In this document: piece by piece, positions 633-12,992 of the stretch
Layout: every line of letters begins with the position of its first letter
Numbering within the stretch: position 1 is the stretch's first letter
Program-made: the position numbers and the translations under genes
DNA from: Lachnospiraceae bacterium
Lineage (GTDB): Bacteria > Bacillota > Clostridia > Lachnospirales > Lachnospiraceae
DNA length: 64,000 bases
Direction: 5' to 3'
Assembly (NCBI GenBank): GCA_024693135.1
Contig: JAILLN010000003.1
Location: 1-64,000, forward strand
The notes under the pieces: generated by a model
Database searches by the model: none
Told to the model about the DNA's origin: nothing
What the model saw: only the letters and a program-made list of their open reading frames with translations

Positions 633-777
633 CTTTATTACCGCACGGACAGCATTCCATGTTATTAATCCAAAGATTTGCCATACTCAGCCTGATGCTT
701 CCCAAAGACGGCCGCTTCGTTTCTATTTGTCTATTGTCCTGTCGGACGGATCTTTTGATCATGATCATGACAGGCTC

Positions 778-840
778 TTAATATATGATATATTAATCTT
801 AATATATGCCATATTCCCAATCACTGCCCCGGGATATAAT
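778..840 (+). promoter_or_regulatory. Promoter with two 17-bp half-sites, 21 bp apart (leader copy 1)
   Basis: Half-site 1 (TTAATATATGATATATT) starts at 778 and half-site 2 (TTAATATATGCCATATT) at 799, a 21-bp period. A consensus -10 TATAAT lies at 835-840; the -35 window at 812-817 is poor (TATTCC) and overlaps the last 4 bases of half-site 2. The same arrangement recurs at 7477-7539 with identical spacing. Two same-face direct repeats touching a weak -35 is the layout of AraC-family activator sites such as araI, and an AraC-type regulator is encoded at 12995. Binding is inference. The rest of 633-885 holds no gene. Confidence 0.65.
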
Positions 841-885
841 AGGACGACAATACATTTTTGCGGTTTTCTCCTGGAGGTATTGGAT

Positions 886-3800
886 ATGAAGAGAAGATAC
901 AGAAGCTTTACCGCCTATTTTCTTATGATGGCATTATTGCTGCAGCCATTGACGGTTCAGGCGGCGGATGTGGTGGAGCCTGCGCCGACTGCTGAAACGG
1001 AGGCGGCATCCGCATCCGAGATGCCGGGTGAGCCTTTGGAGACGGTATCGGAACCGGAACAGGACGCTTTTTCCGCAGAGCCGGAGAACGGACTTGTACA
1101 GGCTGTGACGGATGCAGGCGGGACAGGCGGCGGCTCGGTCACTACAGACAGATGGGGATATTGCGGAGCCCCGCTGGTGAATGGAGAGCCTTCAGAAAAC
1201 ATTGAGTGGGAGTATGACGAGACAACACATACTCTGACCATCACCGGCGAGGGCAGGATGCTTAATTATTCCTATAGCGATGCTGCACCTTATCCGTATG
1301 TAAGAAATCCTTCGCCATGGTATAAATTTAACAGTTCTATCCTTCATGTAAAGATTGATGACCGGATCACCTATATCGGAAGCGAGGCTTTCTGGCATTG
1401 CGGGGCTCAGAGCATGAACTGCCCGTTTCCGATCCCGAAATATGTAGAGACGATCTCAGATGATGCTTTTTACGGTTCGAATTTCAAACAGACGGATCTG
1501 ATTCTTCCCGATACTCTTAAGGTGGTTGGATCGAGAGCCTTTGTGTTATGCAACGGGTTTGAAAACCTCGTCATTCCCGGCTCTGTCGAACGGTTTGATT
1601 CTGTATTGGGAGGTTCAGGTATTGATGACGGAGACGCGGGCCTTAAGAGCATCACTATACTGCCTGGCTCATTAAAGAGCATACCTATTAGATTTTGCTC
1701 CGCCTGTCCTAATCTTGAAAGTGTGATCATCCCATCAAACATAGAAACTATAGAAGATAGTGCCTTTTATTACTGTGAGAAGCTTGAAAGCTTTACCTTT
1801 GCAGAAGGCTTAAAGAAGATCGGTTCAGCGGCATTTTCCAATTGTAAAAATCTGAAAAGCTTTAATCCTCCTTCTACATTGGAAGAGATAGGAAGTTCCG
1901 CATTTGAAGGGTCCGGCCTTACCGGAAACCTGACCATTCCTGAAAATATCAAAGAACTTGGCGGTTCAGCATTTATGAACTGTGACGGCTTTAAGGATAA
2001 AGAGCTTGTGATCAAAGCGCCTCTTAAGGAGATAAAAGGCAATGTGTTTAATTGCTGCTTCTTTAATAAGATCTCACTCCCGGATACGATACAGACAATA
2101 GGGGGGGCTGCTTTTAATTATCACAGAGCAAAGACTCTTTTCATACCTGAGCTTGTAGGAGAGATCGGAGAAAATGCTTTTCAGCAGGACTTAAGAAACA
2201 GCGACGGGTGGAATCTCACCGATGTCTATTTCCCTGGAAACGCCCCCTATGTTTATGTAAATTCCAATTACAATACGTACGGGAGAATATTCGGGACCAA
2301 ATCGACAGAAAATAAGAAAATAAACATTCATTACCGTCCGGGACGGGCAGGTTGGAATGATTCCAACGTGATTTATACAACATATAACCTTGTGGAGACC
2401 GAGGATTATCCCACGACCGGACTGATTATAACAGATTGTCCTGAAATGGAGCCTGAAAGCGGAAAGTGCGGGGATCATCTCACCTGGACGGTCACAGGAA
2501 GCGATAAGGGACATACACTGACCATAACCGGCTCGGGAGATATGTATGACTATGACTGGGAATCCTACAACGGCAGCACAGTACCCTGGAAGAAATATCT
2601 GGGCAGTATCGTAAAGGTTGTTGTTCCCGATGGCATGACAAAGATAGGAGCCTACAGCTTTGCGGGCTTAAGGGCCGTCAGTGGGGATTTCCCGATACCG
2701 TCAGGCATAAAGGTGATAGGGGATCATGCCTTTTCGCCGGATTCGAATGGGGGGAAGGATTTAAATGCCAAGTATGCTTCGAATTTTTATTCTGAAGATC
2801 TCAGCCTGCCCTCATCCCTGACAGAGATCGGCACGGATGCCTTTAACCGCTGCCAGGGCATAAAGAAGGTGATCACATCCTGTCCTGAGCTTAAGGAAGC
2901 CTGTTTTGCTTACTGCGGATCTCTTTCAGAGATCGTTCTCAATAGCGGCGTGGCTAATATTGGAAAGTCAGCCTTTGATAATTGTTACGGATTAACGGAA
3001 ATAACGGTTCCCTCCACAACGACGGATATCGGAGAGAAGGCGTTTTACTTCTGCAGATCGGTGAGCAGCCTTTCTCTTCCTAAAGGACTTAAGAATATCG
3101 GTAAATCGGCCTTTGAGTGTGAAAGATATGACAAAAGCAGCTATAAGGGTCAGCTGGTCCTTCCTGAGGGCCTTAAAACCATTGGAGACAGGGCATTCTA
3201 TTGGTGTACCTTTGAAGGCGATCTGATCCTGCCGGAAGGACTGGAAAGCATAGGACAGTATGCATTTTATTATTTAAAATGTACCGGCGATCTTATTATT
3301 AAAAAAGGACTGACAGAAATCCCACAGTATGCATTCTACAGCTGCCAGTTTTCCCATATTTATCTGCCTGATACCCTGGAGAGCATCGGTGCATCATCAT
3401 TCGGAAATCATTCGGATTATGTGGTTGTTCCCGCATCCGTAAAGACTGTGGGGAACAATGCGTTTGTTGCATATAACAAGGATTTCAGCCTGTACTTCTA
3501 CGGTGCGCCTCCGGTCACAACGGGATCTGCGCCCTTTGGAACAAAGAACAGTACAACGCTATATTACATCAGTGGTATTGAAGGCTGGGGCGATAACTTG
3601 GAGGGCTATGAGTGCATCGGGCTGGATGCAGACCGTATGCCTGGAAATGATCCCGCTGAGACAACGGTGATCCCTGCCGTTAAGGTTAAGTTGGACAAGC
3701 CATCTGCAGGGCTTGATGCGGGGAAGAGCCTTGAGCTGACTGCGACTGTAATCCCGTGCTTTGCGACAAACAAAAAAGTGCTGTGGTCGAGCAGTAAAGA

Positions 3801-6177
3801 AGATATTGCTACTGTAAACGAGAACGGAAAGGTGATGGGGCTTAAGGCCGGGACTACCGATATCACTGCTACAAATGTGGACGGAGGCGCCGTATCCTCC
3901 TGTAGTGTTACTGTTACCGGCTCAGCGGATATAATACATGCGACCTCGGTCTCGCTGAATAAGCATGAGGAGCAAATCGAAGTCGGGAAGATCACTTATC
4001 TGTATTGGACAGTATACCCGACGAACGCAACAAATAAGGGAATATCCTGGAGCAGTGATGATGAAAGCATAGCTACAGTTATTTCATCTACAGGTCAGAT
4101 AAGGGGTGTATCAGCCGGAAGTACGTATATTACGGTAATAACAGATGACGGATCGAAAAAGGACAGATGCAGGCTTACCGTTATAGGTGACGATCCCGGT
4201 CCTGCGCCTGAAATACATGTATCCTCTGTCGCACTGAGTAAACACGAGGAGGAGGTCGAGGTCGGAAAGAGTATATACCTGCTTCATACGGTATACCCGA
4301 CGAATGCAACAAATAAGGGAGTAACCTGGAGCAGTGATGAAGAAAGCATAGCCACGGTAAATTCTTCGGGTCAGGTAAAGGGTGTATCAGCTGGAAGTAC
4401 GTATATTACGGTGACAACAGACGACGGATCGAAAACGGATAGATGCAGGCTTACCGTTATAGGTGGCGAACCCGGCCCTGAGCCTGAAATACATGTCTCC
4501 TCTGTTGAGCTGAGCAAACATGAGGAGGAGGTCGAGGTCGGAAAGAGTGCAACCCTGAGCTGTACGATATACCCTGAAAACGCAAAAAATAAGAAAGTAA
4601 CCTGGAGCAGTGATGATGAAAGCATAGCTATGGTAAATTCTTCAGGTCAGGTAAAGGGCGTATCAGCCGGAAGTGTATATATCACGGTAACTACCGTTGA
4701 CGGATCGAAAACGGACAGATGCAGGCTTACCGTTAAAAACGGAACGCTCCCCCCTGGGCCTACGCCGCCCCCTGCTCCTTCGGTCGTTCAATATACCCTT
4801 ACCTTCAAGGTCAGTGATAATGTGTATAGGACTTTAATAGTGAATGCCGGCGAGACAGCGGATGAAGTAGAGGATCCCACGGGAGACGGGGAGTTCGTCG
4901 GATGGTATTTAGACGGAAAGCTCTGGGACAGGACCCTTCCGGTGTATGGGGATGCAACGATCGTCGCCAGATTTGTCAAAGCTTCCGAAAATGTTGATAA
5001 GCCCGGAGAGAGCTCTTTGGATACCCAGCCGGAGATCGGGCAGACAACAACTTCGTTAAAGCTGGTCAAGGGACAGAAGTTTACCCTGAGCGGCAACGGA
5101 TGGACGAGCTCCGAGCCGGGCGTGGTCGCAGTCAAGGGTAAAAATGTGACGGCAAAGAAGGCAGGAAGTGCCTCCCTTCAAATTGAGAGTCAGACCATAA
5201 ATGTAACGGTTGCGGCACCGTCATTTACTGATGAGGATAAAAAGTTCACTCTCATTGTTCCTGAAACAAAGAAGCTGCAGCTCAAAGACGCCGGAGGCTT
5301 TACCATATTCTGGGTCAGTTCGGCGCCTGACGTGGCGTCGGTGGCTTCTGACGGCACCGTCATGGCGGCGGGCGCGGGGAAAGCAAAGATCACGGCATAT
5401 ATAAACGGAGTGGGCCTTGTTTCAAATGTCACCGTTAAAGAAGCGGATGCTTCAAAGCGTAATTTTGCAGATGGAGGACTCATAAAGCTCGTTCCCCTGC
5501 AGACCATAAAAATATCTGCAAGGGGCTTCAAGCCTAAAAAGGCTGTGTGGACCTCGAACAGACCGGGCGTATCAGCGGATTCCCTAAAAAAGGGAGTGGT
5601 TTTCGAGGATGGTATAGTCAGGATAACGAAGGACGGGAAGCTGACCGCCATCGGGACAGGACAGACTACCCTGACATCCTCGGGAGCCGGCAGCGATCTG
5701 ACTTTTAAGGTGGAGGTTTCCGAGGTGTCTACCAGGATCGTTCACATGAATAAGGGAACCACCAAAACCCTCAAGATGTATGGAACCAAGGGGACGCTGC
5801 CATGGACGTCTTCAAAGGAAGGTATCGTAAAGATAAATAAAAGCAACAAGATCAAGGGCATGCAGACCGGGAAGACCGAGCTTACCGCCGAGTACGATGG
5901 CTTTACCATAAAGGTGACGGTATATGTCGAGGAGCCGAGGCTTGCAAACACGGAGCTTACCGGTAAATATCCCAGATATTCCCTTGTCTTAAGTCAGGGG
6001 GATACGGTTATATTAAAGCCGGAAAAGGTATATCAGCCCATGGTCTTCAAGAGCTCCAAAAACAGCATAGTCTTCGTAAACGAGGCGGGGGTACTGACAG
6101 CCAGAGCGAAGGGAAAAGCAAAGCTTACCGCTGTTGTGAATAAAAAGACCGTGACAGTGACGGTAACGGTGAAATAA
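886..6177 (+). CDS. Giant secreted BspA-type LRR / Ig-like surface protein (copy 1)
   Basis: A 1763-residue secreted protein. ATG 886 is chosen because GGAGGT precedes it and a Sec signal peptide (charged MKRRYR, hydrophobic LMMALLL, cleavage near VQA-A) starts there. Two blocks of leucine-rich repeats of the BspA/LRR_5 type follow (about residues 135-510 and 535-920; repeated I-G-x-x-A-F and L-P-x-x-L), each opened by a W-x-x-x-x-x-x-x-L-T-I-T-G segment. Then come four Big_2-like Ig domains (about 928-1285), an InlB/Flg_new-like module (about 1298-1365, G-W-Y-L-D-G-K) and a beta-rich C-terminal region of about 380 residues. There is no LPXTG anchor and no C-terminal membrane helix, so the attachment mode is unknown; the conserved C-terminal region may do it. 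BspA-type proteins bind host matrix, mucin or other cells, but the ligand here is unknown. Confidence 0.85.
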   Translation: MKRRYRSFTAYFLMMALLLQPLTVQAADVVEPAPTAETEAASASEMPGEPLETVSEPEQDAFSAEPENGLVQAVTDAGGTGGGSVTTDRWGYCGAPLVNGEPSENIEWEYDETTHTLTITGEGRMLNYSYSDAAPYPYVRNPSPWYKFNSSILHVKIDDRITYIGSEAFWHCGAQSMNCPFPIPKYVETISDDAFYGSNFKQTDLILPDTLKVVGSRAFVLCNGFENLVIPGSVERFDSVLGGSGIDDGDAGLKSITILPGSLKSIPIRFCSACPNLESVIIPSNIETIEDSAFYYCEKLESFTFAEGLKKIGSAAFSNCKNLKSFNPPSTLEEIGSSAFEGSGLTGNLTIPENIKELGGSAFMNCDGFKDKELVIKAPLKEIKGNVFNCCFFNKISLPDTIQTIGGAAFNYHRAKTLFIPELVGEIGENAFQQDLRNSDGWNLTDVYFPGNAPYVYVNSNYNTYGRIFGTKSTENKKINIHYRPGRAGWNDSNVIYTTYNLVETEDYPTTGLIITDCPEMEPESGKCGDHLTWTVTGSDKGHTLTITGSGDMYDYDWESYNGSTVPWKKYLGSIVKVVVPDGMTKIGAYSFAGLRAVSGDFPIPSGIKVIGDHAFSPDSNGGKDLNAKYASNFYSEDLSLPSSLTEIGTDAFNRCQGIKKVITSCPELKEACFAYCGSLSEIVLNSGVANIGKSAFDNCYGLTEITVPSTTTDIGEKAFYFCRSVSSLSLPKGLKNIGKSAFECERYDKSSYKGQLVLPEGLKTIGDRAFYWCTFEGDLILPEGLESIGQYAFYYLKCTGDLIIKKGLTEIPQYAFYSCQFSHIYLPDTLESIGASSFGNHSDYVVVPASVKTVGNNAFVAYNKDFSLYFYGAPPVTTGSAPFGTKNSTTLYYISGIEGWGDNLEGYECIGLDADRMPGNDPAETTVIPAVKVKLDKPSAGLDAGKSLELTATVIPCFATNKKVLWSSSKEDIATVNENGKVMGLKAGTTDITATNVDGGAVSSCSVTVTGSADIIHATSVSLNKHEEQIEVGKITYLYWTVYPTNATNKGISWSSDDESIATVISSTGQIRGVSAGSTYITVITDDGSKKDRCRLTVIGDDPGPAPEIHVSSVALSKHEEEVEVGKSIYLLHTVYPTNATNKGVTWSSDEESIATVNSSGQVKGVSAGSTYITVTTDDGSKTDRCRLTVIGGEPGPEPEIHVSSVELSKHEEEVEVGKSATLSCTIYPENAKNKKVTWSSDDESIAMVNSSGQVKGVSAGSVYITVTTVDGSKTDRCRLTVKNGTLPPGPTPPPAPSVVQYTLTFKVSDNVYRTLIVNAGETADEVEDPTGDGEFVGWYLDGKLWDRTLPVYGDATIVARFVKASENVDKPGESSLDTQPEIGQTTTSLKLVKGQKFTLSGNGWTSSEPGVVAVKGKNVTAKKAGSASLQIESQTINVTVAAPSFTDEDKKFTLIVPETKKLQLKDAGGFTIFWVSSAPDVASVASDGTVMAAGAGKAKITAYINGVGLVSNVTVKEADASKRNFADGGLIKLVPLQTIKISARGFKPKKAVWTSNRPGVSADSLKKGVVFEDGIVRITKDGKLTAIGTGQTTLTSSGAGSDLTFKVEVSEVSTRIVHMNKGTTKTLKMYGTKGTLPWTSSKEGIVKINKSNKIKGMQTGKTELTAEYDGFTIKVTVYVEEPRLANTELTGKYPRYSLVLSQGDTVILKPEKVYQPMVFKSSKNSIVFVNEAGVLTARAKGKAKLTAVVNKKTVTVTVTVK
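3934..4740 (+). repeat. Three tandem Big_2-domain repeats (period 276-279 bp)
   Basis: Near-identical units begin at 3934, 4213 and 4489, each opening with ATACATG and encoding S-K-H-E-E and W-S-S-D blocks. The high DNA identity suggests recent internal duplication within the stalk region of the surface protein. Confidence 0.8.
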
Positions 6178-6200: not shown

Positions 6201-6341
6201 TTGCTGGTTTCGCTCATCATACTCGTTGCACAGCAAGGATGAGGCAGACCTCTTTTAAGCGGATTATACTACAGGTTAAATGACAAAGTGTGATCCGGGA
6301 TTTATGCTAGTTACATAGTAAAAAGAAAGGGGGTCTAACAG

Positions 6342-7001
6342 ATGGCGGAGAAGATGTTAGTTACGCAGGCTCTTGATGAAAGGGATCTGCTTGTGAAAAA
6401 GATCGGCGACAAGATCGCCAAGGCTTCCTTCACGGATGTGAAGAAGCATAATGAAGAGAAGGTGATGGAGGGCAGGCTTAGCGGGGAGGATTTCCGGAAG
6501 GATGCCGAGAGCGCATATCAGCAGATCATGGATCTGATCCAGAGATTTCAGAAAATAGATGCCGCAATCGTGGCATCCAATGCAGCAACAATGATCCATA
6601 CTTCTTTTGGAGACTACACCGTTGCCGGCGCAATCTCTATGAGGAGCAGGATGCGCGGATCCGGCAGCTATGATTCGCAAGCGGATTTTGAACAGAATCT
6701 ATATAGCAAGATGAAGAATGAGCTGGATAATCGCCTGATCACGATCGAGATCAAGAATAAGCAGCTGGAAAGTACTGCAGAGAGCATGCGCCTGAGCATT
6801 TTGGGCAAAGACTCTAAGGCAAAGGATGATAAGCCACTTGAGGTTGTTACCGCCTATGTTAAGGAGAATACCACAGAGCTTGTGGATCCGCTGGATGTGC
6901 AGAAGAAGGTTAAGGAGATCCAGGAGAGGAGGGCAAAGCTGCTTGCCGAGCTGGATACGCAGATCAAGGTATCCAATGCGACAACCTTTATCGAGATCTG
7001 A
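6342..7001 (+). CDS. Alpha-helical protein, DIP1984/septicolysin-like architecture
   Basis: A 219-residue protein with no signal peptide or membrane segment. The ATG follows AAAGGGGGT. It is almost wholly helical and charged: an opening A-L-x-E-R-D helix, a middle part with I-D-A-A-I-V-A-S-N-A-A-T, a turn-rich R-M-R-G-S-G-S-Y patch, then a closing coiled coil ending E-L-D-T-Q-I-K-V-S-N-A-T-T. The repeated S-N-A-x-T at the ends of two helical halves resembles DIP1984-family (septicolysin-like) proteins, which are frequent in phages, but the match is by eye and weak. It lies between a broken regulator copy and a structured RNA, so it may have arrived with that RNA. Function unknown. Confidence 0.6.
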   Translation: MAEKMLVTQALDERDLLVKKIGDKIAKASFTDVKKHNEEKVMEGRLSGEDFRKDAESAYQQIMDLIQRFQKIDAAIVASNAATMIHTSFGDYTVAGAISMRSRMRGSGSYDSQADFEQNLYSKMKNELDNRLITIEIKNKQLESTAESMRLSILGKDSKAKDDKPLEVVTAYVKENTTELVDPLDVQKKVKEIQERRAKLLAELDTQIKVSNATTFIEI

Positions 7002-7017
7002 ATAGCATAGCATTCAT

Positions 7018-7420
7018 TGCCTGCAACACGAAAACTCCAAACCCGGTTTCCCTGTAACAGGGTTACGTTACATTACATGCATTCCCAATAATGCAAATAT
7101 TGGAAAAGAATCAGAATAGTGAAGAGGTAACACGTTAGCCGTCAACGCTGAAATCGTGGGTTCGAATCCCGCTTCTGAGCCCCATTTGATGGGAAGTAGG
7201 CCCCGGCCGTGGCTATAATCGGCCTCCAACTGGTCAACCGTTTTGCATTTTGGGTGAACTGTGAATCATCAATGATCAACGGTAATCTCTTAAAGCTTGA
7301 ATCGGGAACCGAGAACTTTATTTTAGACATAGAAATATGTTGAAATCCATGGTACAGGTTTTGGGCGTTAAACCGGTTGGTCCGGAGTTATCCTCATGGC
7401 TGTGTTGCAGGCATTTTTTT
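7018..7420 (+). ncRNA. Large structured RNA closed by long-range helices, ending in a U-run
   Basis: The ends pair in three nested helices: 7018-7029 with 7402-7413 (12 perfect pairs, TGCCTGCAACAC/GTGTTGCAGGCA), 7033-7038 with 7384-7389 (AACTCC/GGAGTT) and 7043-7049 with 7370-7376 (CCGGTTT/AAACCGG). Seven T residues follow directly (7414-7420), as in an intrinsic terminator. Inside are hairpins at 7050-7062 (CCCTG/CAGGG), 7078-7095 (TGCATT/AATGCA), 7181-7193 (CCCAT/ATGGG), 7205-7224 (GGCCG/CGGCC), a TCGG-GAA-CCGA stem near 7310, and ACATA-GAAA-TATGT near 7327-7340, plus a tRNA-like fold at 7110-7180. It is not tmRNA or RNase P RNA by their signature sequences. Ornate large RNAs (ROOL, GOLLD) and Y-RNA-like YrlA RNAs are possible relatives. 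No start site is evident; a promoter could lie in the upstream gene. Confidence 0.6.
7110..7180 (+). tRNA. tRNA-like domain (anticodon position UCA; probably not a standard tRNA)
   Basis: A full cloverleaf can be drawn: acceptor 7111-7116 with 7173-7178 (TCAGAA/TTCTGA; the first pair is an A-G mismatch), D-arm GTG/CAC around a GG-containing loop (7119-7133), anticodon stem TTAGC/GCTGA (7135-7139 with 7147-7151), a 4-nt variable loop and a textbook T-arm (7156-7172, GTGGG TTCGAAT CCCGC). The 7-nt anticodon loop is CGTCAAC, so the anticodon slot is UCA and position 33 is G instead of U. That would read UGA and is unlikely to decode normally. No long variable arm as in tRNA-Sec is present. It lies inside the larger RNA, so a structural mimic or a decayed tRNA fits better than a working tRNA. 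Confidence 0.5.
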
Positions 7421-7476
7421 ATTCGAATTGATCGTAGGACTATGCCGTTATATGGTGAAGTCAGACTCTTAATCTC

Positions 7477-7539
7477 TTAATATATGTCATATAAATCTTA
7501 ATATATGCCATATTCTTAATTACCGCTCTGAGGTAAAAT
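7477..7539 (+). promoter_or_regulatory. Promoter with two 17-bp half-sites, 21 bp apart (leader copy 2)
   Basis: Half-sites TTAATATATGTCATATA (7477) and TTAATATATGCCATATT (7498) are again 21 bp apart, and the -10-like TAAAAT (7534-7539) starts exactly 36 bp after half-site 2, as in the first leader. The sequence between has drifted, so the half-sites appear to be the conserved element. The remaining bases to 7601 hold a T-rich stretch and the ribosome site. Confidence 0.65.
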
Positions 7540-7601
7540 AGAGTGGTAATTTTTTAATTTTTTATGGTTTTCTCTTTTTTCTTCTCTTGGAGGTGTTGGA
7601 T

Positions 7602-10600
7602 ATGAAGCATAGATACAGAAGCCTTACCGCTTATTTTCTTATGCTGGCCTTATTGCTGCAGCCCTTGACGGTTCAGGCGGCGGATGTGCCGACTGCCGAA
7701 ACGGAGGCGGCATTTGCATCTGAAATGCCGGGTGAGCCTGCGGAGCCGGTATCGGAACCGGAACAGGCCGCTTTTTCCACAGAGCCGGAGAAAGATGCAT
7801 CAGAGCCGGAGAACGGATCTGTGGCAGAAGTACCTTCGAGTGGGGTAGAAGAAGCCGCAGGAGGGGATACCTATGTTGTAACGGTATCAGGTATGTGTGG
7901 TGTTGATATCATCTGGGAATATTCTGAGCAAGCCAGGACGCTATACATCCATGGTAAAGGAAAAATGAATGATTTTTATCATGATGTTTACCGCCGTCAG
8001 TATAGTGCAACAGATCCACTCGTTCCCTGGAATGATTATAAAGATAATATTGAGCACGTATCGATCTCAGGATCAATAACCTATATTGGAAAATGCGCTT
8101 TTGCTGACTTTACCAAAGTTACGGGGGGGTTTCCCATACCGGCGACCGTAACAGAGATCGGGGATTATGCCTTCCGCAACTCTTCATTTCAGGCGGATGA
8201 GCTGGATCTGTCGAGCGTTAAAAAGATCCAGATCAGTGCTTTTGAGGAGTGTCAGGGGATAAAGGCTGTTAAGATGGGCGCAGGGCTGGAACTGTTTCGC
8301 GAAGCGGCTTTTAAACAGTGCCACAATCTTACAAAGGCAACCATCAATGAGTATTGTCAGCTTAAGAGCTATGGAGAAACAAGGCCGGACGCCGAAGGAG
8401 TATTCAGTGGCTGCGAAAAGCTTCAAAGTGCCGACATACCGGGTACGGTAATCTATATCGGATGTTGTACCTTCGAGGATTGCACCTCTCTGGTTAGCGC
8501 CCCTCTTCCAGATGGACTCAAGATAGTCGGCCATGCTGCTTTTAAGAACTGCTCAAAGTGGCAGTGCACCTCCTTCCCTGAAAACATAGCAAGAGTTGAA
8601 TACGACGCTTTCTTAAATTGTATAGGTCTTAACTGTGATTTGACCTTCAGACAGCCTGAGGAAATGTTTGAAAGTAATAGTACAGCAGATATTCCTATCG
8701 GAGCAAGTGCGTTTAAGGGATGTACGGGTTTAACAGGTCATAAGCTTACCATATATGCCTACGGGATCCGTGCTATGGATCAGGTGGGCGATTATGCTTT
8801 TTCAGGCTGTGGCTTTTCGGAGATCCACCTTCCTACTTCTCTGTGTCTGATCGGAATTGAAACCTTTAAGGATCATCAGGCGACAACAATAGTTATCCCT
8901 CATCTTGTAAACACGATCTGGAAGAATTCATTCCAGAGCAGTACACATACCAAGTTTTATTTCCGGGGAAACCGGCCGCTGAATCATGGAGGCGGATATG
9001 TTTTGGGAACGGATTATCTGGGGGATGCCGACTGTGTAACGGTATACTATCTACCAAATAAAGCCGGCTGGACAGAAAACAGTATGGGATATGAATGCCA
9101 TGAGATCACGGAATCCGAGCTGAAAAGTGTCCTTGTTCCCTCAGAAGAGCAGTATGTTGAGGAAGAGCTGGTCGTATCCGGAAACTGTGGCTGGGACGGG
9201 ACGCAGGAACACATCTATACGAAGACGAGCGATGTACAGTGGGAGCTTCGCGGAAATAAATCCAAGGGCAGGGTGCTTAAGATCACCGGCTCAGGCAATA
9301 TGTTTCCTTATCGCCGTAGAAATGGAAGTGCAGTAACGGATCCCCCGGAATGGTTTCAGTACAATACTTCCATTGTCAAAGTGGAAATATCGGATGAGGT
9401 TACCTCTCTTTGCAATTGGGCTTTTTATAAACTATATGCTGTAACCGGAGAATACCCGATTCCTGCAAAGCTTGAGAGTATGGGATCTTCTGTTTTTGAA
9501 AGATCGGGATTTTATTCAAAGAACCTTGTGCTGCCTGAAACCCTTGTTTCAATAAAAGGAGGGGCGTTTAGCGGCTGTCCGGGTCTTTTGAAGCTGACGG
9601 TACCCAAAAGCGTTAAAAAGATGTCGGGAGGTGATTACTATGTTTCTGACGGTGCTTTTGCCGAGACATCATCTGCGGGAGATGGACTTGAAGAACTGGT
9701 CTTTGAAGATGGGCTTCCGGAAATTGGTGACTATGCGGTTAATGAAGGAAGCAGCGCAAGCAATTCCAGCAGCAGACTGAAAAAGGTAACGATCCCCGGA
9801 TCTGTTAAGAGCATTGGTAAGGAAGCATTCAAAAGCAATAAACTTCTTGAACAGGTCTCTCTGGGAGAAGGTATTGAGAGCATAGGGGAAAAAGCATTTT
9901 ATGAATGCAAAACCCTGAACAGCATCGATCTTCCCGAAGGATTGAAGACGGTTTCAAAGAATGCATTTACCAACTGTGCTCTTTCCGGCAATCTGACACT
10001 GCCGTCCACGTTGACGGATATGCAGGAAAGCGCGTTTTATAAATGTGGAAAGCTTGACAGGCTTGTTGTGCTTTCCGGCATTGAATCCATACCCGCGAGC
10101 GCATTTTACGATTGTCAGGTGAGATCGCTGAGTCTGCCGGAGGGTCTGATCTCCGTGTCCGGCAATGCTTTTTATAACCACAGGTCTTCTTATCTGGTGT
10201 TGCCGTCCACTCTGCGTCATGTCAGTAACGGCGCATTCAGCAGCTACAGTTATGGCAGTCTGAAAAGCGTTTATTTCAAAGGCGATGCACCTGAAGAGCT
10301 GGTAAACGGTACCGCGACAACGGCCTTTGGTACATCGGGTATGAGCAATTCGCCCATCCTTTATTACCTTAAAGGAACACAGGGCTGGGCTGATACGCTT
10401 TGCGGATATACCTGTGTGGCAATTGAAGCGGAAGATTTTCCGGATGAAAGTTCGGATCCTGTCGTGTTTCCGCCCGCCTATGTAAAGCTGGATCAGGATT
10501 CCATCGAGGTGGCAGAATGCAGAGTGCAAACCCTGAAAGCCACTGTATATCCTACTGCTGCCGTAAATCAGAAGGTGATCTGGAGCAGCAAGGATCCAAA

Positions 10601-12992
10601 GATCGCGGAAGTAAATCAGAACGGGAAGGTGACCGGAGTCAGCGAGGGAGAGACCGTCATATTTGCAACTACGGAAAGCGGAGGAAAGACTGCGGAGTGC
10701 AGTGTCAAGGTCACGAAGAATTCATTGGGGAATACCAGGGTTGAAGGCGTGAATCTTTGCCAGGATACTGTTGTTATAAAACCGGATCAGTATTTCAGTC
10801 CTTATTGCATTATTACCCCGAAAAATGCTGTAAATACAAATGTGAAATGGACTAGTACTGATACAAATGTGGCAAATTACTATTCCTCAATAAAAGGCAT
10901 TGCTGTCGGTACGGCTGTATTGACAGTCACTACCGAAGACGGAGATCATACGGATTCCTGCAATGTGACTGTCCGCGAGCCTTCGGAGGGAGAGGTACTG
11001 GTGAATGGCATTACCGCCAAATCCGGAACCTCTTATCCGGAGGTTGAGAAGGGGCAAAGCCTGACAATAACTCCCCCGGATTTTAACCCGGCAAATGCTA
11101 CAAACCAAAAGCTTTACTGGATGAGCTATGATCCCAATATTGCATCGGTGGATCAGGACGGAACCGTTACGGGTTATGAGGCAGGTACGGTTATGATAAG
11201 AGCCTCAACAGAGGATGGGGGGAAATATTGTACATATTCCCTGAAGGTCAAGGATTCAGGTGCACAAATCGTAAGAGTGAACGGGGTTACCGTAAATCCC
11301 TCGGAGATTTCGTTAAAACCCGGGGAGAGCACCACGCTTATTGCTACGGTAATTCCTTCAAATGCTACAGACAGGACTGTCACATGGACGAGCTATCCGT
11401 TATCCGTGGCAACCGTGGATCCAAATGGAAAGGTGACAGCGGTTTCATCAGGAAATGCTACGATAACCGTAAAAACGAATGACGGAAACAAAACAGCGAC
11501 CTGTGTTGTCAGGGTAAAAGGAAGCGATGATCCCGGGCCCGGACCTGCGCCTGAACCTGAACCCACGCCGGCTCCTGAACCCACGCCGACCCCTTCGGCC
11601 GTTCAATATACCCTTACCTTCAAGGTCAGCGATAATGTGTATAAGATATTAAAGGTTAATGCCGGCGAGACAGCGGATGAAATAGAAGATCCCACGGGAG
11701 ACGGGCAGTTCGTCGGGTGGTACCTAAGCGGAAAGCTATGGGACAGGACCCTTCCGGTGTATGAGGATGCAACGATCGTCGCCCAATTTATCAAAGCTTC
11801 CGAAAATGTGGATAAGCCCGGGGAGAGCTCCCTGGATACCCAGCCGGAGATCCGGCCGACAACATCCTCGTTAAAGCTGGTAAAGGGACAGAAGTTTACC
11901 TTAAGCAGCGACGGATGGAAGAGCACGGATTCAGTCGTGGTCGCAGTCAAGGGAAAAAATGTGACGGCTAAGAAGGCAGGAAGCGCCTCCCTTCAAAGCG
12001 AGAGCCAGACCATAAATATAACCGTTGTGGCGCCTTCATTACCAAATGAGGATAAAAAGCTCACACTCATTATTCCTGAAACAAAGAAGCTGCAGCCAAA
12101 AGACGCCGGTGACCTTAACATATTATGGGTAAGCTCGGCACCTGATGTGGCGTCTGTCGCTTCTGACGGGACCGTCATGGCGATGGGCGCAGGGAAGGCA
12201 AAGATCATGGCATATGTAAATGGAGTGAGTCTTGTTTCAAATGTCACCGTAAAAGAAGCGGATGCTTCAAAGCGTAATTTTACCGATGGAGGACTTATAA
12301 AGCTTGTTCCCCTGCAGACCATAAAAATATCCGCAAAAGGCTTCAAACCGAAAAAGGCTGTGTGGACCTCGAGCAGACCGGGCGTATCCGCGGATTCACT
12401 TGAAAAGGGAGTGGTTTTCGAGGATGATATCGTCAGGATAACAAAGGACGGAAAGCTGACCGCCATCGGTGCAGGGCAGACTACCCTGACATCCTCAGGA
12501 GCCGGCAGAGATCTGCGCTTTAATGTGGAGGTTTCCGGAATGTCCACAAGGATCGTCCACATCAACAAGGGCAGCAGCAAAACCCTTAAGATCTATGGCA
12601 CCAAGGGAACGCTTGCATGGATCGCCTCAAAGGACGGTATCGTAAAGATAAATAAAAATAACAAGATCAAGGGCATAGAGACCGGAAAGACCGAGCTTAC
12701 TGCAAAATACAAAAACTTCACCGTAAAGGTGACGGTATATGTAGAGGAGCCGAAGCTTACAAACCCGGAGCTTACCGGAAAATATCCCCAATATTCCCTT
12801 GCCTTAAATCAGGGAGATACGGTTATATTAAAGCCGGAAAAGGTATACCATCCCATGCTCTTCAAGAGCTCGAAAAACAGCACCGTCTTCGTAAATGAGG
12901 CAGGGATCCTGACAGCCAGAGCAAAGGGAAAAGCAAAGCTTACCGCTGTCGTGAACAAAAAGACCGTGACAGTAACGGTAACGGTGAAATAA
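7602..12992 (+). CDS. Giant secreted BspA-type LRR / Ig-like surface protein (copy 2)
   Basis: A 1796-residue paralogue of the protein at 886. ATG 7602 follows GGAGGT, and the signal peptide is nearly the same as in copy 1. Two LRR_5 blocks (about residues 95-510 and 520-940) have diverged strongly from copy 1. Four Big_2-like domains (about 957-1307) are also divergent from each other. A proline/glutamate linker (P-E-P-E-P-T-P) leads to the InlB-like module (about 1333-1400) and a C-terminal region of about 380 residues almost the same as copy 1. The stop is two bases before the response-regulator ATG, so this copy heads the sensory operon. No sorting signal is seen. The conserved signal, leader and C-terminus against variable LRRs suggest shared export and anchoring with different ligands. 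Confidence 0.85.
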   Translation: MKHRYRSLTAYFLMLALLLQPLTVQAADVPTAETEAAFASEMPGEPAEPVSEPEQAAFSTEPEKDASEPENGSVAEVPSSGVEEAAGGDTYVVTVSGMCGVDIIWEYSEQARTLYIHGKGKMNDFYHDVYRRQYSATDPLVPWNDYKDNIEHVSISGSITYIGKCAFADFTKVTGGFPIPATVTEIGDYAFRNSSFQADELDLSSVKKIQISAFEECQGIKAVKMGAGLELFREAAFKQCHNLTKATINEYCQLKSYGETRPDAEGVFSGCEKLQSADIPGTVIYIGCCTFEDCTSLVSAPLPDGLKIVGHAAFKNCSKWQCTSFPENIARVEYDAFLNCIGLNCDLTFRQPEEMFESNSTADIPIGASAFKGCTGLTGHKLTIYAYGIRAMDQVGDYAFSGCGFSEIHLPTSLCLIGIETFKDHQATTIVIPHLVNTIWKNSFQSSTHTKFYFRGNRPLNHGGGYVLGTDYLGDADCVTVYYLPNKAGWTENSMGYECHEITESELKSVLVPSEEQYVEEELVVSGNCGWDGTQEHIYTKTSDVQWELRGNKSKGRVLKITGSGNMFPYRRRNGSAVTDPPEWFQYNTSIVKVEISDEVTSLCNWAFYKLYAVTGEYPIPAKLESMGSSVFERSGFYSKNLVLPETLVSIKGGAFSGCPGLLKLTVPKSVKKMSGGDYYVSDGAFAETSSAGDGLEELVFEDGLPEIGDYAVNEGSSASNSSSRLKKVTIPGSVKSIGKEAFKSNKLLEQVSLGEGIESIGEKAFYECKTLNSIDLPEGLKTVSKNAFTNCALSGNLTLPSTLTDMQESAFYKCGKLDRLVVLSGIESIPASAFYDCQVRSLSLPEGLISVSGNAFYNHRSSYLVLPSTLRHVSNGAFSSYSYGSLKSVYFKGDAPEELVNGTATTAFGTSGMSNSPILYYLKGTQGWADTLCGYTCVAIEAEDFPDESSDPVVFPPAYVKLDQDSIEVAECRVQTLKATVYPTAAVNQKVIWSSKDPKIAEVNQNGKVTGVSEGETVIFATTESGGKTAECSVKVTKNSLGNTRVEGVNLCQDTVVIKPDQYFSPYCIITPKNAVNTNVKWTSTDTNVANYYSSIKGIAVGTAVLTVTTEDGDHTDSCNVTVREPSEGEVLVNGITAKSGTSYPEVEKGQSLTITPPDFNPANATNQKLYWMSYDPNIASVDQDGTVTGYEAGTVMIRASTEDGGKYCTYSLKVKDSGAQIVRVNGVTVNPSEISLKPGESTTLIATVIPSNATDRTVTWTSYPLSVATVDPNGKVTAVSSGNATITVKTNDGNKTATCVVRVKGSDDPGPGPAPEPEPTPAPEPTPTPSAVQYTLTFKVSDNVYKILKVNAGETADEIEDPTGDGQFVGWYLSGKLWDRTLPVYEDATIVAQFIKASENVDKPGESSLDTQPEIRPTTSSLKLVKGQKFTLSSDGWKSTDSVVVAVKGKNVTAKKAGSASLQSESQTINITVVAPSLPNEDKKLTLIIPETKKLQPKDAGDLNILWVSSAPDVASVASDGTVMAMGAGKAKIMAYVNGVSLVSNVTVKEADASKRNFTDGGLIKLVPLQTIKISAKGFKPKKAVWTSSRPGVSADSLEKGVVFEDDIVRITKDGKLTAIGAGQTTLTSSGAGRDLRFNVEVSGMSTRIVHINKGSSKTLKIYGTKGTLAWIASKDGIVKINKNNKIKGIETGKTELTAKYKNFTVKVTVYVEEPKLTNPELTGKYPQYSLALNQGDTVILKPEKVYHPMLFKSSKNSTVFVNEAGILTARAKGKAKLTAVVNKKTVTVTVTVK

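Follow-up and report, generated by a model that had tools for sequence, protein, structure and literature searches.

Little is understood of what the large ornate RNAs GOLLD, ROOL and OLE do (PMC12286853). The same source describes linkers in GOLLD that sometimes hold tRNAs, and it states that ROOL has no identified protein partner (PMC12286853). A different type of RNA, YrlA, has a tRNA-like domain and is located in an RNA-repair operon, while Ro60/Rsr with its Y RNA tethers an exonuclease and has been suggested to act as a nuclease inhibitor, according to the available text of PMC7790460. Ro/TROVE proteins, which have a tRNA-like partner in cellular organisms, are also reported from some jumbo phages in the part of PMC7824862 at hand.

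Here we analyzed a 64,000-nt stretch of a Lachnospiraceae genome (contig JAILLN010000003.1, hereafter the window) and found a conserved pseudoknotted RNA located directly 3' of a protein gene. The same arrangement is present in scattered gut bacteria of the Lachnospiraceae and, in a divergent form, in many phages. No title or abstract opening that we found in the openly licensed literature describes this protein-RNA pair, which is apparently undescribed. Because the RNA has a small protein gene of its own and related pairs occur in many phages, it looks like a large RNA-protein machine, perhaps one linked to tRNA damage and RNA repair. The adjacent protein, a 7-nt register within the RNA and the RNA-repair neighbors of many bacterial loci make its function directly approachable.

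The RNA is 394 nt long in the window and 164 to 421 nt long across its relatives (Table 1). The original prediction had proposed three nested helices joining its two ends. An inverted-repeat search found the arms in precisely this order, with 12-bp arms of 100% complementarity on the outside (7018-7029/7402-7413, the pair 7018/7413 being the twelfth of P1 in the window), then AACTCC/GGAGTT, which is included in a 14-nt partial match of 79%, and finally 7-bp arms in the P3 region (7043-7049/7370-7376). Compensatory changes maintained all three helices among the 50 relatives that we aligned. The U run expected at the very end of the segment directly abuts the 12-bp helix, and in 38 of 80 RNAs the 14 nt 3' of P1 contained four or more consecutive T. 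In line with the view that the region is noncoding, the only open reading frames of at least 50 amino acids within it are two of 53 and 62 amino acids, both on the minus strand. A scan of the region with cmscan against 4227 Rfam families (E ≤ 5) returned only the tRNA and one chance-level match, in agreement with the claim that no common RNA fits by signature. When the window RNA was folded as a single sequence, a z score of -2.3 was obtained and none of 100 shuffles was as low. Since this stability is only moderately unusual, we examined conservation of the structure in relatives.

Table 1. Features of the protein-RNA pair in the window
Feature	Position	Strand	Remarks
Partner protein gene	6342-7001	+	219 aa, PHROG 1491; conserved upstream of RNA
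RNA	7019-7412	+	Ends defined by helix P1
P1, 5' strand	7019-7029	+	Partner 7402-7412
P1, 3' strand	7402-7412	+	Complementarity and covariation
P2, 5' strand	7033-7038	+	Partner 7384-7389
P2, 3' strand	7384-7389	+	Covariation
P3, 5' strand	7043-7048	+	Partner 7371-7376
P3, 3' strand	7371-7376	+	Covariation
Pseudoknot stem S1	7050-7062 (CCC 7050-7052 / GGG 7060-7062)	+	Invariant
Pseudoknot stem S2	7054-7071 (7054-7058 / 7067-7071)	+	Covariation
Embedded tRNA fold	7110-7182	+	ARAGORN; anticodon loop without U33
Heptad tract	7227-7323	+	About 14 heptads; AA at 7-nt intervals
Hairpin P7	7326-7341 (7326-7331 / 7336-7341)	+	Covariation
P8, 5' strand	7347-7351	+	CCATG, partner 7395-7399; crosses P2 and P3
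P8, 3' strand	7395-7399	+	Covariation
T7 run	7414-7420	+	Directly 3' of P1; possible transcript end
Separate terminator-like hairpin	7518-7551	+	Farther downstream; consensus scan only

The covariation alignment comprised 50 of the 61 RNAs sized 355 to 405 nt, out of a set of 80; the 11 omitted RNAs were mostly near-copies, with L068 as the exception. The 42 pairs of the seven helices were formed in 97.2% of the cells, and changes on both sides of a pair were seen at 27 pairs in 220 cells. The shuffle control gave both-side changes at 14 pairs in 61 cells, and sliding the partners by 1 to 3 columns left 4 to 9 pairs and 10 to 24 cells. Pairing was nearly complete in P1 (98.9% of the cells; 7 of 11 pairs covarying), P3 (99.7%; 5 of 6), S2 (100%; 5 of 5), P7 (100%; 4 of 6) and P8 (99.6%; 2 of 5), the last of which is also visible by eye in phage relatives. 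P2 was the weakest helix, with 83.3% of the cells paired and 4 of 6 pairs covarying, and its two outermost pairs were kept in just 15 and 39 of the 50 sequences. The three pairs of S1 were without any variation, and because they never vary, conservation rather than covariation supports this stem. Given that P8 crosses P2 and P3 and that S2 crosses S1, the core of the RNA is pseudoknotted. Unprompted, RNAalifold recovered P1, P3, S2, P7 and four pairs of P2, and it also predicted three stems of the tRNA (D, anticodon and T), in which compensatory changes had occurred; altogether, 37 of its 49 predicted pairs, tRNA stems included, showed a compensatory change.

Homologues with broken and uncompensated helices would have spoken against the original prediction, and the comparison of relatives did not refute it. 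Chance inverted repeats are ruled out by the covariation, and we regard the RNA structure as real with near certainty. The original prediction was right in describing a large, structured, noncoding RNA that is closed by three nested helices, holds a genuine tRNA fold and is none of the common RNAs. Not noticed in it were the protein neighbor, the 7-nt repeats, the pseudoknots and the occurrence in phages.

A full tRNA-like cloverleaf had likewise been predicted inside the RNA, and the Rfam tRNA model matched 7110-7180 with 47.4 bits, above the gathering value of 29, in addition to the ARAGORN call. In the window RNA, the anticodon loop reads by eye CGUCAAC, without the usual U33, and the fold has no CCA end. 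ARAGORN placed a tRNA at a similar position in 58 of the 80 RNAs. These 58 tRNAs harbored 22 different anticodons, corresponding to Thr in 23 cases, then to Leu, Ile, Arg, Met, Lys, Ser and others, and six of them lacked a valid one. U33 was present in 44 of 52 tRNA folds of the relatives and CCA in only 13 of 58, and the T-loop motif GTTCRA was found in 55 of 58. Varied anticodons together with a nearly constant GTTCRA indicate conservation of the tRNA shape but not of its decoding end. An ordinary tRNA gene is excluded by this anticodon drift and by the position inside a covarying RNA. ARAGORN called no tRNA in the other 22 RNAs, some of which keep tRNA-like letters when aligned (e.g., L071, L082 and L089), and some RNAs measure just 164 to 298 nt. 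The smallest, at L028:5668-5831, is a minimal 164-nt RNA without a tRNA and with nearly no tract. Both the tRNA and a long tract are hence dispensable. On the phage side, a scan of 27 loci at gathering level showed us one RNA with a tRNA in it (L164).

The segment between the tRNA and P7 is a tract in which AA, sometimes UU, recurs every 7 nt. In the window, positions 7184-7327 alone contained six AA pairs at lag 7 (z 5.0). When 68 of the 80 bacterial tracts (those of RNAs longer than 330 nt) were pooled, we counted 269 AA pairs at lag 7, with a z of 22.4 versus dinucleotide shuffles that is inflated by kinship, and lag 7 was the top lag in 59 of the 68 tracts. Similarly, 39 hand-picked phage-side regions, mostly one per close group, gave a z of 14.8 and had lag 7 on top in 29 cases, compared to 3 of 39 coding controls. 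No lag-7 excess was seen in coding, upstream or further-downstream controls (z -1.3, 0.1 and 0.7, respectively). Sorting the AA into seven phases placed a share of 0.48 in the best phase of bacterial tracts, 0.32 in that of viral tracts (17 of 20 loci) and 0.37 in that of shuffled bacterial tracts, a mild signal in the bacterial tracts and none in the viral ones. This far less clear phase table suggests that slips in phase occur. A hidden helix was rejected as an explanation of the tract, as six tracts were not consistently more structured than shuffles (z from -1.8 to +1.5); even for L154, which had the lowest value, 11 of 200 shuffles reached it.

The partner protein belongs to PHROG 1491, which is labelled "tail fiber protein," and nothing in this analysis supports that label. 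The PHROG was its only match, with no Pfam match over threshold and no NCBIfam family, and sequence searches of the PDB gave no convincing relative. The protein is predicted to be helical, and its fold may resemble 3kdq. In a DNA search of 99 genomes (its own and relatives up to the same order), two near-full-length RNA homologues of 76% identity were recovered, both from the same genus and each directly 3' of the partner gene. A scan of one genome per species yielded 135 bacterial relatives of the protein, and we collected the loci of the best 80, almost all of them labelled as Lachnospiraceae or as one of its genera, together with two viral contigs. The 5' motif of the RNA (at most 4 mismatches) was found 3' of the gene in all 82 loci. 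Two of these run off their contig, and 79 of the 80 with at least 400 nt downstream harbored a complete RNA, which started 10 to 98 nt past the matched gene end. At the remaining locus, L056, the 5' motif downstream of the gene is weak, and a good 3' domain lies upstream of it (L056:4062-4148).

We then compared RNA and protein searches in 299 family genomes, apparently the same draw for both. The RNA model matched 16 genomes and the protein search 14 (two of them with small fragments), and 12 had both. Two of the RNA-only candidates, G317 and G372, are just 3' halves, and a third (G190) was rejected as a false match in coding sequence; G219 has a complete RNA with a C-terminal gene remnant. 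Protein without RNA was represented by the two fragments only. RNA and gene are rarely found intact alone. Across 391 genomes of the class, PHROG 1491 had matches in 4.

In the window, the pair is flanked by similar surface-protein genes (727-6177 and 7587-12992), as if it had been inserted between copies; LRR_5 and Big_2 domains were matched in the former, and the latter is alike by eye. Related helix-turn-helix genes lie just upstream or downstream of the pair in 36 of 83 loci (e.g., L031, L039 and L046), and DUF6557-type proteins are encoded near 12 of 80.

To recover relatives from viral contigs, alignment queries were needed, as the window protein alone found none there. Among phage records, relatives of about 30% identity numbered 580 with the window protein and 681 with a closer query, and the phages carrying them include T5-like phages, Vequintavirinae, Otagovirus and Clostridioides phages. 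At most inspected loci, hundreds of bases devoid of any substantial gene come after the partner gene, and in most of them we recognized by eye CGAAAAC near the start, heptads and a helix of the form AAAUCC-NNG / CNNGG-CUG. We built a covariance model of the 3' domain from 29 of 49 distinct bacterial-type domains, including L107 from a viral contig. This model, the E values of which are rough, was applied to 53 phage-side loci, and 41 of them had a match just 3' of the gene at E ≤ 1 (L020 and L117 being near-identical); 29 of these 41 matches were at E ≤ 0.01, the best at 1e-9. Matches of L160, L198 and one of L162 were left uncounted, being located elsewhere than just after the gene. The other 12 loci, T5-like DT57C included, had no in-place match at E ≤ 1, and a rescan of them at E ≤ 10 gave as its best result a weak in-place match in L025 (E 1.8). 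In DT57C, heptads (lag 7 on top) and a helix CCUAG/CUAGG were identified by eye 3' of the T5.085 homologue. An annotated stable RNA, rnaX, lies about 2 kb after the partner gene of this phage (L197:5054-5609).

The Rfam family RAGATH-27 (RF03100) matched L024 right after the protein gene, with 77.2 bits versus a gathering value of 76.1, and it matched the viral loci L173, L179, L171, L177 and L165 below gathering. The window gave no match to it at E ≤ 5. What RAGATH-27 describes is the 5' domain of our RNA as found in some phages; its model of 86 positions covers this domain only. The sister name RAGATH-18 designates an RNA that co-occurs with upstream IS607 TnpBs, a family of RNA-guided nucleases, according to the accessible part of PMC11061315, and it is, by analogy, a precedent for a protein partner of an orphan RNA in this series. 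The 8 kb of L024 (Dulem virus 39) that hold the pair also contain a type II hammerhead (474-538) and an annotated RtcB gene (7071-8276). In Salmonella phage pSal-SNUABM-01, a gene of the ProQ/FinO family overlaps the start of the partner gene (L198:1780-2508), hinting at an RNA-binding operon. Rfam drum RNAs were found near the pair in two viral contigs (L139:4392-4499 and L165:515-625).

The bacterial loci vary in position, yet they have neighbors in common. At least one of RNA ligase, Rnl1, Thg1 and RtcB is encoded near 23 of the 80 loci, and the individual counts, in which related loci are not independent, were 16 for RNA ligase, 6 for T4 Rnl1-like ligase, 6 for Thg1 and 5 for RtcB, the last identified through its annotation. 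PIN and PARG each occur near 9 of 80 loci and metallophosphatases also recur, so that 36 of 80 loci have at least one member of these groups or of the former ones. None of 40 control pieces of 8.6 kb (4 genomes) matched the same queries, a contrast that is biased upwards because most queries were drawn from the counted loci and picked for recurrence. On the phage side, RNA-repair neighbors were detected at 2 of 87 loci, bacterial queries and flanks of 3 to 4 kb making this a weak test. The copy in the window has no RNA-repair gene beside the pair, with surface-protein genes on both sides. Of 100 family genomes, 8 had PF09414 ligases over the cut-off, and in five the match was strong. In G372, the gene immediately 5' of the RNA's 3' half was recognized by eye as the RNA ligase of other loci. 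RloB-like and AAA_21 genes near the pair (L029:8621-9301 and L066:2687-3898) resemble a known anti-phage defense layout. RNA-repair genes and the pair may simply share defense islands.

We propose, at a probability of roughly 0.5, that the pair would be a phage-related ribonucleoprotein in which the protein binds the heptads and the tRNA fold acts as bait or dock, Ro60-Y-like yet unrelated to Ro60-Y. Judging from the sequences, RNA and protein probably form one ribonucleoprotein. The RNA would be made as the 3' part of the transcript of its own protein gene and then trimmed, and P1 to P3 together with P8 and the S1/S2 pseudoknots would close its ends into a compact core. The heptad tract would stay largely single-stranded, with protein subunits bound in register, about one per 7 nt. 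We give this register even odds, and the heptads could serve something other than the partner protein. To our knowledge, no comparable RNA-protein register is known from other systems. The tRNA fold would be read by its shape (elbow and stems) and not by its anticodon, and it might offer tRNA-cleaving, tRNA-trimming or tRNA-repairing enzymes a bait or a place to dock. In phages, the ribonucleoprotein may protect tRNAs or translation against tRNA-cleaving defenses of the host, and bacteria would have taken it over, often beside RNA ligases, Thg1 or RtcB. A role in tRNA damage or repair is, from genomic context and tRNA fold, a possibility that we rate just short of even. More tentatively, we envisage phage-wide ribonucleoproteins in which a DUF6847-like protein follows a strict 7-nt register along the repeats of a pseudoknotted RNA, and the resulting filament or ring would display a tRNA module to sense, trap or repair tRNA damage in phage-host conflict; the bacterial form would be an RNA-repair platform and an independent counterpart of Ro60-Y.

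Other readings account for parts of these data. The conserved tRNA stems and drifting anticodons would be expected if the RNA were only a decoy, one that imitates a tRNA in free form, titrates anticodon nucleases or tRNA-processing enzymes and is merely stabilized by the protein, and competitive inhibition is suggested for the tRNA-like domain of YrlA in the accessible part of PMC7790460. A decoy leaves unexplained, however, the heptad tract and the absence of a detected tRNA from 22 of 80 RNAs, as well as the phage side, where a tRNA was noticed inside the RNA at L164 only of 27 loci, and we consider it unlikely. We think even less of an RNA-built cage or oligomer of the GOLLD/ROOL kind, in which a flexible linker would hold the tRNA and the protein would be a cargo or a cap. 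The pseudoknotted ends do flank a variable linker able to hold a tRNA, as GOLLD sometimes does (PMC12286853, available part), and some phage relatives are located in tRNA clusters; however, neither GOLLD nor ROOL matched in Rfam, the RNA is shorter than the >800 nt of many GOLLD RNAs, and a protein gene is coupled to it, whereas for ROOL no protein partner has been identified (PMC12286853).

The close spacing of 10 to 98 nt behind the matched gene end would also suit a cis-acting 3' untranslated region that controls the stability or level of the protein's own mRNA. So would the sole promoter-like site that we found, which lies upstream of the gene (6280-6308), although it is weak and such sites are fewer than the shuffle mean. 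For such a task, the size, the pseudoknotted core, the embedded tRNA and the 7-nt register appear excessive, and one genome (G219) retains a complete RNA with just a C-terminal remnant of the gene; we judge this reading as improbable as the cage. The same locus argues against an RNA-regulated toxin pair, in which a harmful protein would be silenced by the repeat RNA. In type III systems, the RNA lies upstream of the toxin gene. A two-part unit, a repeat RNA and a scattered distribution recall these systems, but here the RNA is downstream and no nuclease family or clear nuclease fold was among the protein matches, which makes this reading very improbable. A phage-related ribonucleoprotein with heptad-bound protein, if correct, would show what a protein family common in phages and often labelled tail fiber does, and it would explain RAGATH-27. 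One copy, with RNA elements recognized by eye, lies in DT57C, the host of which is E. coli.

With regard to protein families, the partner protein has 15% identity to DUF6847 (PF20935)/3kdq, with no Pfam match over threshold, and PF20935 reached 12.6 bits (cut-off 27) for one of 7 phage-side proteins. DIP1984 is a name that we take to denote DUF6847 and 3kdq, and septicolysin-like is a label in one phage record. None of five DUF6847 loci matched the RNA model, and their periodicity was weak and broad (z 2.6 at lag 7).

At the outset, the RNA had been said to recall ROOL/GOLLD or a YrlA RNA, and as analogies these are apt. Membership is not supported, as there is no such Rfam match, and by this test the RNA is not GOLLD, ROOL or a Y RNA. 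The GOLLD covariance model did not match the window RNA, nor did the ROOL model match in the window, in 15 loci of bacterial relatives or in 27 phage-side loci at gathering level. Like GOLLD as described in the accessible part of PMC12286853, our RNA is phage-linked and ornate and has a linker that often holds a tRNA (58 of 80), but both its ends are conserved, a protein gene is coupled to it and it is shorter than the >800 nt of many GOLLD RNAs. Similarly, ROOL is a phage or prophage RNA with pseudoknots, often near tRNA islands (PMC12286853, available part), and differs from ours by the protein gene coupled here. As to Ro60-Y, the partner protein has no TROVE match at E ≤ 0.1, no Y RNA of Rfam matches, and our RNA has a heptad tract and the P1-P3/P8 pseudoknots, unlike Y RNA. 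The parallel with Ro60-Y RNA is one of analogy, not of kinship: as far as the sources at hand describe it, Ro60/Rsr-YrlA also joins a protein to an RNA with a tRNA-like module; in some bacteria, Ro60/Rsr-YrlA belongs to an RNA-repair operon.
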